Shown: in pieces, positions 54,146 to 62,553 of the stretch | How positions within the stretch are numbered: the stretch's first letter is position 1 | Layout of the letters: the number at the start of each line of letters is the position of its first letter | NCBI RefSeq assembly: GCF_000482865.1 | Contig: NZ_AXWW01000006.1 | Location: 62,001-126,000, forward strand | Direction of reading: 5' to 3' | Origin: Actinokineospora inagensis DSM 44258 | GTDB taxonomy: Bacteria; Actinomycetota; Actinomycetes; Mycobacteriales; Pseudonocardiaceae | DNA: 64,000 nt | Position numbers and translations under genes: made by a program | Notes under the pieces: model-generated | Database searches by the model: none | What the model was told of the DNA's origin: nothing | Seen by the model: only the letters and a program-made list of their open reading frames with translations

Positions 54146-54600
54146 CTGGGGGGCGACCCCCCAGACCCCCACGGTGCGATCACTCTCGACCCGGCGTTGC
54201 TCGCTTGGGCCTGTCGGCCCTCACATCGAGCATGCAACCCAACGGGCCGGTCGCCCACGGTGCGGCGGACGCCGGAACCAGCGCTGCTCGCTTGGGCCTG
54301 TCGGCCCTCACATCGAGCATGCAACCCAACGGGCCGGTCGCCCACGGTGCGGCGGACGCCGGAACCAGCGCTGCTCGCTTGGGCCTGTCGGCCCTCACAT
54401 CGAGCATGCAACCCAACGGGCCGGTCGCCCACGGTGCGGCGGACGCCGGAACCAGCGCTGCTCGCTTGGGCCTGTCGGCCCTCACATCGAGCATGTAACC
54501 CAATGGGCCGGTCGCCCACGGTGCGGCGGGTGCCGGAACCGGCGTTGCTCGCTTGGGCCTGTCGGCCCTCACATCGAGTGTGTAGCCAATGGGCTGTCGC
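54146..54600. repeat. Post-tRNA 87-bp tandem repeat array
   Basis: Opens with CTGGGGGG-CGA-CCCCCCAG (54146-54164), identical to the hairpin after tRNA-His. Then five direct copies with exact 87-bp period start at 54204, 54291, 54378, 54465 and 54552. Each copy has the hairpin GGGCCTGTCGGCCC, CTCACATCGAG and GCCCACGGTGCGGCGG. The last copies drift. 87 is a multiple of 3, so long frames run through on both strands, but none has gene-like start signals. 54601-54693 is a short leader to the next gene. Confidence 0.9.
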
Positions 54601-54693
54601 CCACGGGGGGGTGACTCTGGGGGTCTGTCGACACCCGGCTTTCTCCTCGGCTTCTTCACGGGATGGGCACGGGGCGCCGGCAGGGTGGGGGGT

Positions 54694-56800: not shown

Positions 56801-57206
56801 CCGGCGGCGAACCCGGGGGTCCCGCAGGCGCACGACCGCACTATGACGCGGGTCATCCGCCCACGTCTGTCCACTGAGGACTCGCCGTCCCGTGTGGTGT
56901 CGCCAACGGCTCGACCGGTGCCAGTTCAGCGTGTGCACAACCACGTCAGCCGAGTGTGGCGCAGCTCTCACTTCGTGGCGAGACCGCCATTCGCAGCACT
57001 GGCGATGCGGCGAACAGTCCGTCACCCGGCGGTCGGTCCGGGCTGCGGGCGGACCAACGGGGCGCCCGCCAACCGGCCCAAATTCCCGCGCCGGGCGCCC
57101 GTGCGGAGGTTGGGGTCGGAGGACCCTGGCGGGTGCCGGGCGCGTCCGACTCGGGTGCGGCACTGGACTGCCCGGTCGGTCCCGGGAGCATCCCCGGCGC
57201 GGTGGC
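56801..57206. other. Convergent intergenic region
   Basis: About 405 bp between the 3' ends of the LysR gene and the GGDEF gene. No terminator with a clear stem, no repeat and no gene are seen. High GC throughout. It may hold transcription end signals only. Confidence 0.4.
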
Positions 57207-58493
57207 TCAGACCGCGACGTCAGCCGGGGGCTCGGCCGCCCGGACCTGGTTGCGGCCGCCGTTCTTCGCCTCGTAGACGGCGGCGTCCGCGCGCCGGAGG
57301 AGGGTCTCCAGGTCGACGCCGGAGCCCGCGGCCACCCCGATGGACGTGGTGCGGTCGCTGATCACGACCGGTTGGCCGCGCTTGTCGGTGGCGGCGACCT
57401 GCATGCCCGCGACGCCGCGGCGGACGCGTTCGGCGACCAGCGCCGCGCCGTCGATGTCGGTGTCCGGTAGCAGCAGGACGAACTCCTCGCCGCCGAAGCG
57501 CCCGACCACGTCCCCTTGGCGGGTGGTCTCGCGCAGCACGGCGCCGACGGAGCGCAGGACCGCGTCGCCCGCCGGGTGGCCCCAGGTGTCGTTGACCTGT
57601 TTGAAGTGGTCGAGGTCGAGGACGGCGACGGCCAGGGTGGACTGGGTGCGGGCGGAGCGGGACAGCTCGCGGCCTGCCTGTTCGTGCCAGCCGCGGCTGT
57701 TGAGCAACTGGGTCTTGTGGTCGGTGCGGGCGTCGCCGCGCAGGTTCTCGATCTGCAGGGCGCCCCAGTCGAGCGCGACGAGCAGCGGCACCACGAACAG
57801 CGGCGCCAGCCAGGCGTGCGCGATGGCGAGGGCGGCCAACGCGCCGAGGCAGACGGTCAGCGCGGCCATCAGGTTGTCGCGCCGGGTGCCGACGACGACC
57901 GTCCAGGTGGGTTGGGGTGTGGACAGCGCGATGACGCCGCCGATGGCGACCGCGTTGATCACGAAGTAGGTGAGGCCCGCGAGGGCCAGGACGAGGGCGT
58001 CCTGGGCGCCGAAGGTGCTGGTCACGTGCACGCCCGCGAGGCGGACCACGGCCAGCGAGCCCAGCGCGGCCAACAGGATGCCCGCGGTGCCGAAGGTGTA
58101 CCGGTAGAGCGGTCGCCGGGCCACCGGGTACAGCTGCACGCGCAGCAGCAACATCGACAGCACCGCCATCCACGCGGGCAGCAGGACCATCGCGGGCAGG
58201 ATCCACACGACGCTCGTGTCCATGTGCGGGCCGGTGCCGCTGTCGCGGCGGGTCTCCTCGGTGCGCCGGGTCAGCCACAGGTGCACCGCGCCCGCCCCGA
58301 CGAGTACGGCGAGTCGGCGCCAATCCGAAGCCGTGGGTGGTACGTCGGTGAGGCAGGCGAGGGCTACCGCGGCGACGGCGAGGAGTTCGAAGATGATCAC
58401 ATACCGGCGGGCCGCGCTCGGCAGCGACCACAACCCCCACGCGCGGACCCGCCGCCAAGACGAAGGGTGTTCAGTGCGCAGCGAGTCGGTCAC
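57207..58493 (-). CDS. Membrane-bound diguanylate cyclase (GGDEF)
   Basis: 428 residues from the GTG at 58493. Six or seven membrane helices (about 25-235), then a GGDEF domain: DHKTQLLNSRGWHEQ, AVLDLDHFKQVNDTWGH, and RFGGEEFVLLLPDTD with GGEEF intact, so cyclase activity to c-di-GMP is expected. The allosteric I site (RxxD) is not clear before the motif. The frame is open much further: a TTG at 59651 has AAGGAGGG 6 nt upstream, and a GTG at 58646 has AAGGTGA. A much longer protein (814 residues) with a Ser/Thr/Gly-rich N-terminal part containing about ten TSR-type repeats cannot be excluded. The tiny-ORF array lies antisense to that part. Confidence 0.85.
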   Translation of the reverse strand: MTDSLRTEHPSSWRRVRAWGLWSLPSAARRYVIIFELLAVAAVALACLTDVPPTASDWRRLAVLVGAGAVHLWLTRRTEETRRDSGTGPHMDTSVVWILPAMVLLPAWMAVLSMLLLRVQLYPVARRPLYRYTFGTAGILLAALGSLAVVRLAGVHVTSTFGAQDALVLALAGLTYFVINAVAIGGVIALSTPQPTWTVVVGTRRDNLMAALTVCLGALAALAIAHAWLAPLFVVPLLVALDWGALQIENLRGDARTDHKTQLLNSRGWHEQAGRELSRSARTQSTLAVAVLDLDHFKQVNDTWGHPAGDAVLRSVGAVLRETTRQGDVVGRFGGEEFVLLLPDTDIDGAALVAERVRRGVAGMQVAATDKRGQPVVISDRTTSIGVAAGSGVDLETLLRRADAAVYEAKNGGRNQVRAAEPPADVAV

Positions 58494-58708
58494 ACTTAGC
58501 CGTGAACGGAACCGGCGCCACCCGAGTCCCCGTGTGCCACCGCGGCGGGCCCTGGTCCGCCCGGCCGCGCGACGGCGACCCACGGCGCGCGGAGCCGCCC
58601 CAGACGCGCCACCACCGGTGCCGCCACGGTTGCGATCAGCGGCCACGGCGTCACCTTCCGGCTTGTCGAACGTTTCGTCCAGCGTGGATCCCCTTGGAGG
58701 TGTGTCCG

Positions 58709-59425
58709 GTGCGCTCGCGTGACTGGTGACCGTCCGATCAGGCCGGTTGTCCACCTCGTCCCCGTCGACCGTCTTATCGGCGCTGTCCACTTCGACCGAA
58801 GGAGTCGCACCCGATGCGTTCCCGCGACTGGTGAGCGAATCCTCCCCGGCGCAGCGCTGTGCCGGGAAATCACCGACCGACCCGGTTCCGGGTACCCGAT
58901 CCGCCCCGACCACAACCCCAGGAGAACCCGATGTCGCGCGACTGGTGAACCCCGAACGACCCGGACCTGTCCCGCCCCCGCCGACCCGAGGAGAAGCCGA
59001 TGCGCTCGCGCGACTGGTGACCACAGACCCGCTCGACCCGCTCGAACCGTCCACACCGACCACTGGAGAACCCGATGTCCCGCGACTGGTGACCACCGGC
59101 CCGTGCCCACCGTCCACTTCGACCGAACCGTCCGCGCCGACCTCAGGAGCAGCCGATGTCCCGCGACTGGTGACCGACCCGACCACCGCAGCCGAACCCA
59201 CCGAAGGAGAGCCCGATGCGCTCACGCGACTGGTGACCACCGATTCGTCCAGACCACCCGAACCGACCACAGGAGACCCCCATGCGTTCTCGCGACTGGT
59301 GACCGCCGACAAGTCCGAACCGAGCACACCGACCCCAGGAGAAGCCGATGTCCCGCGACTGGTGAAACCCGAATCCCCGCCGACCGAACCGACAGGAGAC
59401 CGCGATGCGTTCGCGCGACTGGTGA
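58709..59425 (+). other. Array of ten micro-ORFs encoding MRSRDW or MSRDW
   Basis: Ten tiny frames on the plus strand. Starts and ends: 58709-58729 (GTG), 58814-58834, 58931-58948, 59000-59020, 59075-59092, 59156-59173, 59216-59236, 59282-59302, 59348-59365, 59405-59425. The third, fifth, sixth and ninth encode MSRDW, and the other six encode MRSRDW. Each ends TGA. GGAG lies exactly 6 nt before the ATG in copies 3-10 and 8-9 nt before the start in copies 1-2. The Ser codon uses all four TCN forms and the Arg codons switch CGC/CGT, while GAC, TGG and TGA never change. All ten starts share one frame, so spacing (57-117 bp) is always a multiple of 3, which also fits a long overlapping frame. A degraded eleventh copy is at about 59468-59485. 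Function unknown. Confidence 0.6.
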
Positions 59426-60005
59426 AACCCGAATCCCGTTCCACACCGGCGACCGAGCCCCCCGGGTTCCCGCGACCGGTGCCCGCTTCCGCGCCCCGCC
59501 GACCGTCCACACCGGCGCGCGGTGCCGCGTTTGCCGAGCCCGCTGAGACCACCGAGTCCGCCGTGCCGGGCGACGCCGAGCGCGCCGCCGGGATGTCCCG
59601 CTCGGCGGAGGGTGACCCACCGCGCGCGGGGTCGTGGTCGTTGCGGCCCAACGGTCGCCCTCCTTCCTCTCGAACCGACACCGGGGGCGTGGCGAATGGG
59701 ACGCCTGAGCGGCCGAGGGGTTGTCCCACCCCCGGCGCGCTCGAGACGGACCACGGGCTCTCGCCCGTACTATCGCCGTCCGCTCACGCGGTGTGTCACG
59801 CGGCCGTGCCGGGTCCGCGTCCCAGTTCCGCTTGCACTGTCCCCACGGTACGTCCTGCGCCGACAGTAGCGACCCCGCTACGCCAAGCAGCGCCCGAACG
59901 GAGCACGACAGTACTCGGACGGGTCGGGTAGCCGACTACGGCGTTCCGCCCAGCGGACCACCCGCCAATGGTGGTACACCACTTATCCCCCGCCGGGGTG
60001 GTTGA
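59426..60005. other. Region beyond the micro-ORF array
   Basis: About 580 bp with no independent gene called. The minus strand has AAGGAGGG (59665-59658) 6 nt before a TTG at 59651, which would start a long N-terminal extension of the GGDEF protein. A decayed array copy lies near 59468-59485. From 59730 to 60005 I see no feature except a possible promoter area for the minus strand. Confidence 0.45.
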
Positions 60006-60884
60006 TCACGCGCTGCGCACGGGCGCGAGCCACTTCCGCAGCCGCGGCGGCAGCCGCTTCTCCAGGCCGTACGGCTCCAGGTGCCCGCCCAGCACCTCGG
60101 TGAACGCCGCCGCGACCCCGTCCACGTCCCAGGCGTCCCGGTGCAGGATCGGCGGCTTCAGGTAGGGCTGGCCGACGATGTGCAGCTCCGGGCCGGTACA
60201 GCGCAAGATCTGTCCGGTCACACCGGCGGAGCGCTCGTCGAGCAGGTAGTGCACGAGCGGGGCGACCAGGTCCGGGGTGTGTTCGGGCGGTGTGTGCCGG
60301 GATGCCCGTTCCGAGGTCCACACCATCCTGGTGTACGCCTTCGGGCACACCGCGTTCACCCTGATGCCGCAGTCCTCCAGGTCCAACGCCCACGAGCACG
60401 TGAGCGAGGACACAGCACCCTTCGTGGCCGCGTAGGTGGCGATCGTCCGCTGTCCGAGGGACGCCCCGGAGGAGATGTTGACGATCGATCCACCGCCCGC
60501 GGCCCGCATCCGGCGGATCGCGGCGAGCCCGGTGTAGAGCACACCGAGCAGGTTGACCTCCACCACGGCCCGCGCCCGCGCCGGGTCGTCCTCCCACGGC
60601 AGCGCCTCGTAGGTGAGTCCCGCGTTGTTGACCAACCCGTCCACCGCGCCGAATTCGTCCACGCACAGCCGGACGATCGCCTCGGCCTGCTCCGGGTCGG
60701 CGACGCTGTGCTCGCTGACCACCGCGGGGAACCCGGCGCCGCGGATCGCCGCGGCCACCCGGCGCGCGCTCGCCCCGTCCACGTCGTTGACCACCACCGC
60801 GGCGCCCGCCCGCGCCAGGTGGTGCGCGAACGCCTCACCCAGGCCCCGGCCCGCACCGGTCACCACGACAGCCTTGCCGTCCAT
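60006..60884 (-). CDS. Short-chain dehydrogenase/reductase
   Basis: 292 residues from the ATG at 60884. Motifs: VVVTGAGRGLGEAFA, NDVDG, VNNAGLTYE, NISSGASLG, and YAATKGAVSSL with the Tyr-Lys pair. A C-terminal part with EHTPDLVAPLVHYLLDERSAGVTGQIL resembles 3-hydroxyacyl-CoA or steroid dehydrogenase-type SDRs. A GTG nine bases upstream is an alternative start. Divergent from the MFS exporter gene, with 418 bp between them. Confidence 0.88.
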   Translation of the reverse strand: MDGKAVVVTGAGRGLGEAFAHHLARAGAAVVVNDVDGASARRVAAAIRGAGFPAVVSEHSVADPEQAEAIVRLCVDEFGAVDGLVNNAGLTYEALPWEDDPARARAVVEVNLLGVLYTGLAAIRRMRAAGGGSIVNISSGASLGQRTIATYAATKGAVSSLTCSWALDLEDCGIRVNAVCPKAYTRMVWTSERASRHTPPEHTPDLVAPLVHYLLDERSAGVTGQILRCTGPELHIVGQPYLKPPILHRDAWDVDGVAAAFTEVLGGHLEPYGLEKRLPPRLRKWLAPVRSA

Positions 60885-61302
60885 CCCGCTCACCCCGCAC
60901 CCCGCGCAGCCGGCCCCGATCCCGCGCCGGGCCGGTGCCCGCCGCGGTGGCGTCGTGCTGTCCGCCACCGGCTGCCCGCCAGTGTTGGGCACCCGCGAAC
61001 CCCGAGTCGCCGCACGGGGTACGACGGCGACGAGCGGTGACGGGGATGCGCCGAGCGTGGTGGTCCGTTCAGCCCGCGGGTAGGCGCGGACCGATCAGAG
61101 CCGTTGCGCCGGACGGGCGCATCACCGGGATTTCCGGCCCCTGGTTGCTTCACCGCCACCGATGACCGCCGATACTGCCGGTACTCTGTGCGACGCCGCG
61201 ATGACCGTGCGGCAGGCGTCACCGGGTTCACCGCCCCCAGACCCCGGGGTGCGGAGGATGGAGTCAGCCAGCGGGCCACGAACCCGCCGGACGGGAGCAC
61301 AC
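60885..61302. other. Divergent intergenic region
   Basis: About 418 bp between the SDR gene (minus) and the MFS gene (plus). Possible -10-like GATACT and TACTCT strings occur near 61171-61190, but no paired -35 is clear. No repeat or RNA gene recognised. Confidence 0.45.
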
Positions 61303-62553
61303 GTGAGCCGAGCAGCGCCGGGAATGGCGGCGGTTCTGCGGAACCGGGAGTTCCGCGCGCTCTGGGTCACCGAGGCGTTCTCCGTCGCCGGTGACCAACT
61401 GACCCGGGTCGCGCTGGCGATCCTGGTGTTCGAGCGCACCGGTTCGGCGTTCTACGCGGCCGGGATCTACGCGTTGACCTTCCTCCCCGCGCTGGCAGGC
61501 GGACTCGGGCTCTCCCAACTGGCGGACCGTTATCGTCGACGCACGTTGATGGTCGTGTGCGCGGCGATCCAGGCCGTCGTCGTCGCGGTAATGGCAATTC
61601 CCAGTATACCGCTGTGGTTGCTGTTCGTTCTGGTCATCATCGTGCCGATGGTGCAATCGCCCGCGTTGGCGGCGCAGAACGCGACCACCCGCGAGGTTTT
61701 CGCCGACGACGACCAGCTCTACCTGCGCAGCCAAGACCTGCGCGGCATCTCCACCAACACGATGATGCTGATCGGCCTCGGTGGCGGCGGGTTGCTCGTC
61801 ACCGCCATCGGTACGACGTGGGCGCTGCTCATCGACGCGTCCACGTTCGTCATCTCGGTCGTGCTCGTCCAGCGCGACGTCCACAACCGGCCGCCCGCGG
61901 GCTCCAAGGACGACGGGTGGTTCGACGGCGCCAAGTGGGTGTTCGGCGACCGCAGGCTCCGGGTGCTGATGACGTTGTCCTGGCTGGTGGGCTTAGCCGT
62001 GATCCCCGAGGGCCTGGCCGCCCCGCTCGCGCAAGAGGCGGCGGCGCCCAAGGGAGCGGTCGGCTGGCTGTTGGCCGCGGACCCGATCGGTTTCATCATC
62101 GGCACGTTCCTGCTGTCCCACTTCGTCCCCGACCGGCACCGGGTCAAGCTGATCGGGGTGCTGGCCACCGCGTCGGTCGGCGTGCTGGTGGCGTTCTTCG
62201 CCAAACCCAGCCTGATCCTGGCGCTGGTCCTGCTCGCCCTGGCCGGAGCCGTTGGCGCGTACCAGATCACCGTGATGGCGGTCTTCAACTCCATCGTCCC
62301 CAACGAGATCCGCGGCGGCGCGTTCGGCACCGCCCGCACCGGACTCCGCGTGTCCCAGGGCCTCGGCGTCGCACTGGGCGGTCTGGTCGCCGAACTGGTG
62401 GGTTCGGCGATGAACGCGGTAGCCCTGGCCGGTTTGCTCGGCGTCCTCATCGCGGTACCGATGACCATGGTGTGGTCCCGCATCCACGAGGCACCCGAAC
62501 AGGCGGGTTCGACAGTGCGGGATCCGGCCGGGCGCCGGGAGGAAGCCGCCTGA
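61303..62553 (+). CDS. MFS transporter (DHA3/EntS-like)
   Basis: 416 residues from the GTG at 61303, chosen for GGGAG 5 nt upstream. Twelve membrane helices; NREFRALWVTEAFSVAGDQLTRVALAILVFERTGSAFYAAG at helix 1, and LSQLADRYRRRTLMV (motif A) in the first loop. This subgroup exports siderophores, macrolides and other products. The SAM methyltransferase gene follows 13 bp later, suggesting co-expression. It might serve a product of nearby genes, but no cluster links are proven. Confidence 0.9.
   Translation: MSRAAPGMAAVLRNREFRALWVTEAFSVAGDQLTRVALAILVFERTGSAFYAAGIYALTFLPALAGGLGLSQLADRYRRRTLMVVCAAIQAVVVAVMAIPSIPLWLLFVLVIIVPMVQSPALAAQNATTREVFADDDQLYLRSQDLRGISTNTMMLIGLGGGGLLVTAIGTTWALLIDASTFVISVVLVQRDVHNRPPAGSKDDGWFDGAKWVFGDRRLRVLMTLSWLVGLAVIPEGLAAPLAQEAAAPKGAVGWLLAADPIGFIIGTFLLSHFVPDRHRVKLIGVLATASVGVLVAFFAKPSLILALVLLALAGAVGAYQITVMAVFNSIVPNEIRGGAFGTARTGLRVSQGLGVALGGLVAELVGSAMNAVALAGLLGVLIAVPMTMVWSRIHEAPEQAGSTVRDPAGRREEAA

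Follow-up and report, generated by a model that had tools for sequence, protein, structure and literature searches.

Tandem arrays of micro-genes for peptides of five to eight residues beside a membrane diguanylate cyclase gene in Actinokineospora and other actinobacteria

The window, a stretch of 64,000 nucleotides from Actinokineospora inagensis DSM 44258, was found to carry between positions 58709 and 59425 of its plus strand a tandem array of ten micro-ORFs, six encoding MRSRDW and four encoding MSRDW, and these micro-ORFs are genuine micro-genes. The array lies opposite a gene for a membrane diguanylate cyclase (DGC), and a DGC-array-MFS transporter arrangement recurs in related genomes, with different peptides beside different DGC paralogues. 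The position of the arrays between a membrane signalling enzyme and a transporter suggests a peptide signalling system that has not been described.

The ten frames and their Shine-Dalgarno (SD) sites were present as the initial annotation had proposed, with GGAG located 6 nt upstream of the start in eight copies and 9 nt upstream in the other two. Its claim that the copies differ only synonymously in the micro-ORF frame was also true of all ten, apart from copy length and one GTG start. When the organism's own 7.28 Mb genome was searched, all 10 occurrences of TCNCGNGACTGGTGA were inside the array; the 15-mer pattern of micro-ORF ends was confined to it. The features of the locus are collected in Table 1; the conserved block upstream of the array is a promoter candidate by its position.

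Table 1. Features of the array locus and its neighbours in the window.
Feature	Position	Strand	Evidence
Strongly conserved block upstream of array, promoter-like (GTTCAC..CACACT)	58461..58510	+	12 Actinokineospora genomes aligned
Micro-ORF 1, MRSRDW*, GTG start	58709..58729	+	
Micro-ORF 2, MRSRDW*	58814..58834	+	
Micro-ORF 3, MSRDW*	58931..58948	+	
Micro-ORF 4, MRSRDW*	59000..59020	+	
Micro-ORF 5, MSRDW*	59075..59092	+	
Micro-ORF 6, MSRDW*	59156..59173	+	
Micro-ORF 7, MRSRDW*	59216..59236	+	
Micro-ORF 8, MRSRDW*	59282..59302	+	
Micro-ORF 9, MSRDW*	59348..59365	+	
Micro-ORF 10, MRSRDW*	59405..59425	+	
Degenerate eleventh copy, in phase, without start or stop	59462..59482	+	search allowing up to 3 mismatches
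Membrane diguanylate cyclase (DGC), GGDEF domain with GGEEF	57207..59651	-	PF00990 E 2e-41
Short-chain dehydrogenase (SDR), frequent neighbour	60006..60992	-	Pfam adh_short E 6e-43; synteny
MFS transporter	61162..62553	+	synteny; Pfam MFS_1 on two homologues

Across 12 Actinokineospora genomes, 160 copies were collected with up to three mismatches in the 12-nt core, so that broken copies were included. The 183 codon changes in the micro-ORF frame comprised 154 synonymous and 29 nonsynonymous ones, against an expected synonymous fraction of 0.178 (about 18%) for random single changes. The Ser codon was TCN in 118 cases and AGY in 35, with TCC, TCT, TCA, TCG, AGC and AGT all in use, and exchange was also observed between CGC and CGT for Arg, between GAC and GAT for Asp and among TGA, TAA and TAG for the stop. 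With synonymous change far above neutral and with exchange of start and stop codons, the frame bears the signature of a translated micro-ORF under purifying selection. Selection on a very short peptide, as initially claimed, is strongly supported at the amino-acid level by these results. The further claim that the same changes alter amino acids in other frames held for the minus-strand DGC frame (40 synonymous and 124 nonsynonymous changes across the same arrays) but failed for the antisense wobble-matched frame, which reads H-Q-S-R (107 synonymous and 30 nonsynonymous). The H-Q-S-R frame was ruled out as a gene because it is interrupted by 65 stops across 14 arrays.

A search for related arrays, which had been recommended as a check, revealed frames at the equivalent place in all 16 Actinokineospora genomes examined, where 1 to 23 such frames were antisense within the 5' part of the membrane DGC gene. 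The extremes were single copies in G015 and G018 and 23 copies in G014 (A. iranica). The core was found at 169 places in these genomes, with a start no more than three codons away in 161 and absent in 8. Most of the peptides were MSRDW (77 of the 161 frames with a start) and MRSRDW (63 of 161); the variants were mainly MSVRDW and MTVRDW in G006, mainly MIRDW in G020, MRNRDW in G015 and MRSRDR in G018, whose single copy (L066) is a possible decaying member. A pattern search of contigs yielded ten stretches, nine in Actinokineospora and one in a Verrucomicrobia MAG (L075); the latter, within a TGG-rich repeat, was taken to be a chance match. A second pattern search gave single matches in G049, G050, G281 and G319, and a DGC relative was not found in the matched stretches of G049 and G281.

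The initial annotation had also suspected, without naming it, a long overlapping gene. This gene is real: it is the minus-strand DGC, the frame of which stays open through the arrays. In particular, the 11,457 nt of arrays from the 14 genomes with at least two copies contained no stop in the DGC frame and 40 to 184 stops in each of the other five frames. The DGC frame was open through the micro-ORF copies, and the phase between micro-ORF and DGC was identical, in 16 of 16 genomes. Each of the 153 spacings between copies was a multiple of three, which reflects the passage of the DGC frame through the array on the opposite strand. A possible start behind an SD-like motif was found beyond the last copy in all 16 genomes, with an encoded peptide resembling [LM]G.T.RG in most of them, with some exceptions. 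The Actinokineospora DGC therefore presents a reading frame that seems to be translated through the array antisense and to bear a long low-complexity N-terminus. In the window, the DGC start is probably TTG 59651 behind AGGAAGGAGG, and the ORF could alternatively begin at GTG 59729. In Actinokineospora, a single stretch of DNA appears to have a different frame under selection on each strand, and 153 of 153 spacings keep step.

Several membrane helices were predicted for the window DGC in a low-confidence AlphaFold model (mean pLDDT of 52, from an alignment of 7 rows), and the GGEEF site was intact in 24 of 24 aligned orthologues. MASE9 gave a weak match to the window DGC, below the cut-off, and was not listed for three orthologues. 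The multi-helix membrane domain and intact GGEEF are reminiscent of the MASE-type membrane DGCs. The passages of a review on such domains (PMC8846402) count MASE1 as one of the domains whose purpose is not known, and micro-peptide partners such as those found here are not mentioned in these passages.

DGC matches at E 1e-65 or better were present in 265 of 390 genomes of the family. We selected 40 DGC orthologues from 15 genera, chosen for spread among the best matches listed and not at random, and four other loci from the second pattern search were added to give an outgroup set of 44 loci. By a strict pattern (nearest start, an end of R-[DE]-x-stop and an SD-like motif), divergent micro-ORFs were found at 39 of the 40 chosen orthologues, G039 being the exception, and at all four added loci, for a total of 150 frames; a looser listing gave a candidate frame upstream of the DGC in 40 of 40. 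Six codons made up 148 of the 150 frames. The commonest peptides were MSDRDF, MRDREA, MSDREA, MAGRDF, MSSRDF and MSSRDW, and the C-terminal residue was aromatic in 112 of the 150. The 107 spacings were distributed over the three remainders modulo 3 (32, 43 and 32 for 0, 1 and 2). Since this is no three-periodicity, the array is generally free of the DGC frame in these genera; in G184, G188 and G227, the DGC start may also run across a micro-ORF.

Adjacent outgroup copies revealed which part of the peptide is kept. Codon 2 showed 19 synonymous and 51 nonsynonymous changes, residue 2 being free. At codon 3 and the last codon, both left unfixed by the search pattern, the counts were 22 to 0 and 12 to 1, or 34 to 1 together. 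The Arg codon (35 synonymous) and the Asp/Glu codon (32 synonymous) showed no nonsynonymous change, both being partly fixed by the search pattern. Because codon 2 is free and the later codons are kept, the C-terminal tetrapeptide, SRDW in the window, is the conserved part. The case for selection on the peptide is strengthened here, as the other genera keep it with other codons and without the 3-nt spacing. A GGTATCATCTCAC.. block before the first micro-ORF was common to 17 selected outgroup loci, with variants at some of them, most of all in G204, G205 and G380, and is by its position a promoter candidate.

The tandem arrangement was set against opposite-strand and shuffled controls. The Actinokineospora arrays (12,469 nt) contained 163 SD-equipped micro-ORFs of 5-7 aa and 349 tandem pairs sharing the last three residues; the sequence outside the arrays plus the arrays' minus strand (16 loci, 456,759 nt, both strands) contained 61 such micro-ORFs and no tandem pair. 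The plus strand of the outgroup loci (57,200 nt) gave 176 micro-ORFs and 174 tandem pairs, the minus strand gave 4 and none, and 20 Markov shuffles gave no tandem pair each. Because the controls yielded no tandem pairs, chance was excluded for the Actinokineospora arrays.

To cover DGC paralogues, eight chosen genomes, not a random sample, were searched with a profile of 24 DGC orthologues, and 29 loci were obtained. Divergent micro-ORFs were present at 21 of the 29, and the peptide type differed by paralogue. The orthologue type (MxGRDF, MRDREA or MRSRDW) had micro-ORFs in eight of eight genomes. A second DGC type had a single MR[ST]K[DE]Q micro-ORF at 5 loci, recurring at a nearly constant place, and MRDNNW[T/A/S..]R arrays of 6 to 12 full copies each were found at another 5 loci. 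MRDVNW, MRNREY and MRDKGW were each found at one DGC locus. No clear micro-ORF of the array kind was seen at 8 of the 29 loci. Single-copy loci made up 6 of the 21 positives, and tandem repetition cannot exclude chance at these. A comparison of peptide class with a DGC membrane-domain tree, a quick tree with several long branches, required 10 changes against 27.2 when shuffled; in this same tree with its long branches, the REA class formed one clade spanning two genera. Neighbour linkage alone could yield such tracking of the DGC tree.

We also observed some further frames beside DGC genes. The second DGC of the window genome (G000:C22, near 61466; L144, L178, L198) has two divergent MRNREY* micro-ORFs, and another DGC in G018 has the same two peptides. 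A recurrent MATD[WC]PA* frame was seen at varying distances from the DGC paralogues L180, L181 and L186, and two frames ending in NSRVG were seen in G093; these frames are perhaps a further peptide type.

A class-wide search gave a DGC match in 54 of 296 genomes. Twenty upstream regions were taken from this search, 16 of them outside Pseudonocardiaceae and three of the other four being window-genome paralogues already among the 29 loci. At least two copies were found in eight regions (G000.C22, G018.C202, G581, G491, G606, G430, G523 and G395) and a single related frame in four (G408, G572, G447 and G604); in the remaining eight, the micro-ORF was absent or unclear (G000.C26, G000.C1, G615, G550, G560, G621, G406 and G426). 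Outside Pseudonocardiaceae, arrays occurred at five of eight loci of family f21 and at the one locus of family f8, and the peptides included MRDNTWT in 8 copies, MRDTTW[S/R] in 13 and MRHTSWS in 2. A further count of 58 synonymous and 104 nonsynonymous changes, which took in G581 and G491, was set aside because two overlapping starts of a single frame had entered it as distinct copies in these two genomes.

The gene on the other side of the array was usually a transporter. At 39 of the 44 outgroup loci, the next gene past the array encoded an MFS transporter; it shares the strand of the DGC and converges on the array. The stretches of G227, G255, G256 and G343 contained an SDR and no MFS match, the SDR being co-directional beyond the array in G255, G256 and G343, and G208 had neither gene. 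In the eight genomes, an MFS homologue was directly beyond the micro-ORFs at 19 of the 21 positive DGC loci, namely seven orthologues, the five MR[ST]K[DE]Q loci, the five MRDNNW arrays, G165b and G116c; at the MRDNNW arrays, all five MFS genes were visible only with longer flanking stretches. MFS was not found within 4.5 kb at the MRNREY locus G000.C22, and it was present at G000.C26 and G116f, which are without a micro-ORF of the array kind. Family f21 had an MFS match at six of eight loci, including G615, which lacks a micro-ORF. In Actinokineospora, MFS was within the examined stretch in 12 of 16 genomes, nine of them with an SDR between (a fragment in G017). In the window, likewise, MFS is one gene away from the array, with a convergent SDR between them. 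The Actinokineospora SDR-MFS pair looks as if inverted relative to the other Pseudonocardiaceae, where MFS faces the array; in the window, the two genes form a divergent pair at 60006-62553.

We lean towards the view that the micro-ORF peptides signal to the DGC beside them, or regulate it, as its cognate partners and set the c-di-GMP level; the MFS protein may first export them. Each micro-gene would yield a leaderless peptide of 5 or 6 residues from an array read opposite to the membrane DGC gene and, in most relatives, also to the MFS gene beyond. The peptide, perhaps exported by the MFS protein, would act on the neighbouring DGC, and the many copies with their strong ribosome sites would raise the peptide level and so set c-di-GMP. 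The steps that we infer are transcription of the arrays, their translation in the cell, processing and export of the peptide, its binding to the DGC and an effect on c-di-GMP. According to one report (PMC6495379), the 7-codon mccA was translated in vitro for 71 rounds per ribosome, compared with 30 for 11 codons and 6 for 15 codons; by analogy, the short fixed length and many copies of the arrays would be compatible with high peptide output. More tentatively, and with rather less confidence than we place in the cognate role itself, the arrays may represent an old and widespread actinobacterial module in which MFS-exported leaderless peptides of 5-8 residues are ligands of a membrane DGC family, with one peptide per paralogue type.

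A different reading takes the micro-ORFs to encode the precursors of a small natural product, with or without modification, which would resemble microcin C or the biarylitides and be exported by the MFS protein, with the DGC only a regulator or neighbour. The microcin C pump is of the MFS type, and the biarylitide core has an MxYxH-like motif. The size of the frames, their strong SD sites and the nearby transporter recall microcin C, whose mccA has about seven codons, a strong SD site, no leader and a pump in its cluster (PMC6495379), and the five-residue biarylitide precursors with their 18-bp genes are comparably minimal ribosomal precursors (PMC13417212). The MFS gene at 39 of 44 outgroup and 19 of 21 paralogue loci, MRDNNW arrays included, and the aromatic C-terminus of 112 of the 150 outgroup peptides also fit a product of this kind. 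However, a Pfam scan of ten near-neighbour proteins from six loci revealed neither a P450 nor a ThiF-like enzyme such as MccB. The C-terminal Asn that MccB requires was found in none of the 150 outgroup and 161 Actinokineospora frames, and the peptides end in RDW, RDF, REA and the like rather than in an MxYxH-like motif. Up to 23 tandem copies and a constant DGC partner also differ from microcin C, and that partner would be unexpected for a natural product; the MFS gene is here a frequent neighbour, and export of the peptide through it is putative. We regard a natural product as unlikely. A rather improbable reading is a cis-acting translation device, in which ribosome stalling or repeated re-initiation controls the transcription or stability of the array RNA and of the antisense MFS-DGC transcript, and the peptide has a role only within the ribosome. 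Very short frames, strong SD sites, fixed residues beside the stop, the antisense position of the array to the MFS-DGC interval and the capacity of a single ribosome to translate a 7-codon frame again and again in vitro (PMC6495379) would suit such a device, but at the same 39 outgroup loci the next gene converges on the array, as does the SDR in the window, so that normally no downstream gene is there to be attenuated, as a leader peptide would need; the co-directional SDR genes of G255, G256 and G343 are exceptions. Moreover, the C-terminus varies by DGC type (F, W, Y, A, Q or TR), a variation not expected from a general effect on the ribosome, and a leader has no need of up to 23 copies.

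Two further readings deny the peptide any role. An untranslated repeated DNA or RNA element, whether a protein binding site or a structured RNA, would account for the regular spacing (mostly 57-89 nt) and the conserved sequence blocks, but we consider it very improbable, given a codon-degenerate pattern that extends to TCN/AGY, GAC/GAT, three stops and three starts; an Rfam scan of window positions 57000-61500 gave no match up to E 1, and RNA folding of ten units gave z values between -1.6 and 1.8 and no stable structure. Hardly credible is the proposal that a DGC repeat region, with TSRG..SP repeats on the minus strand, is what is selected and that the micro-ORFs are accidental on its antisense. 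The stop-free 11,457 nt from 14 genomes and the 153 of 153 spacings in multiples of three are in its favour, but it is already contradicted by the DGC-frame substitution counts (40 synonymous, 124 nonsynonymous) and by the outgroup spacings (32, 43 and 32; n=107), where the peptide is kept all the same.

The cognate-peptide reading has a parallel in the Gram-positive peptide pheromone systems, Phr, arbitrium and NprX. Both have a short peptide beside a presumed receptor, with types that differ by paralogue; in contrast, the arrays have no secretion leader, the entire ORF being the peptide of 5-8 residues, and they have many tandem copies and a DGC as the candidate receptor. A link to the BldK oligopeptide signal of Streptomyces is a speculative possibility. 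Tandem micro-ORFs beside a DGC did not come up in searches of the open-access literature, and a description in print elsewhere is possible. Ordinary annotation overlooks genes of only five to eight codons, and here hundreds of copies in dozens of genomes show a clear coding signature and constant partners, one of which has known biochemistry. c-di-GMP governs the development of filamentous actinobacteria. If the peptides act on the DGC, a membrane sensor domain whose signal has not been known would gain a defined ligand, and these organisms a new means of c-di-GMP control. Ribosomal peptides from genes too short for annotation would in this way feed into c-di-GMP signalling, and in Actinokineospora those genes would lie antisense within the gene of their own receptor.

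Two other tandem repeats were observed in the window: an 87-bp repeat of 4.8 copies with 95% matches at 54194-54606, in which several frames are open, and a 39 or 74 bp repeat at the left edge (1-253).
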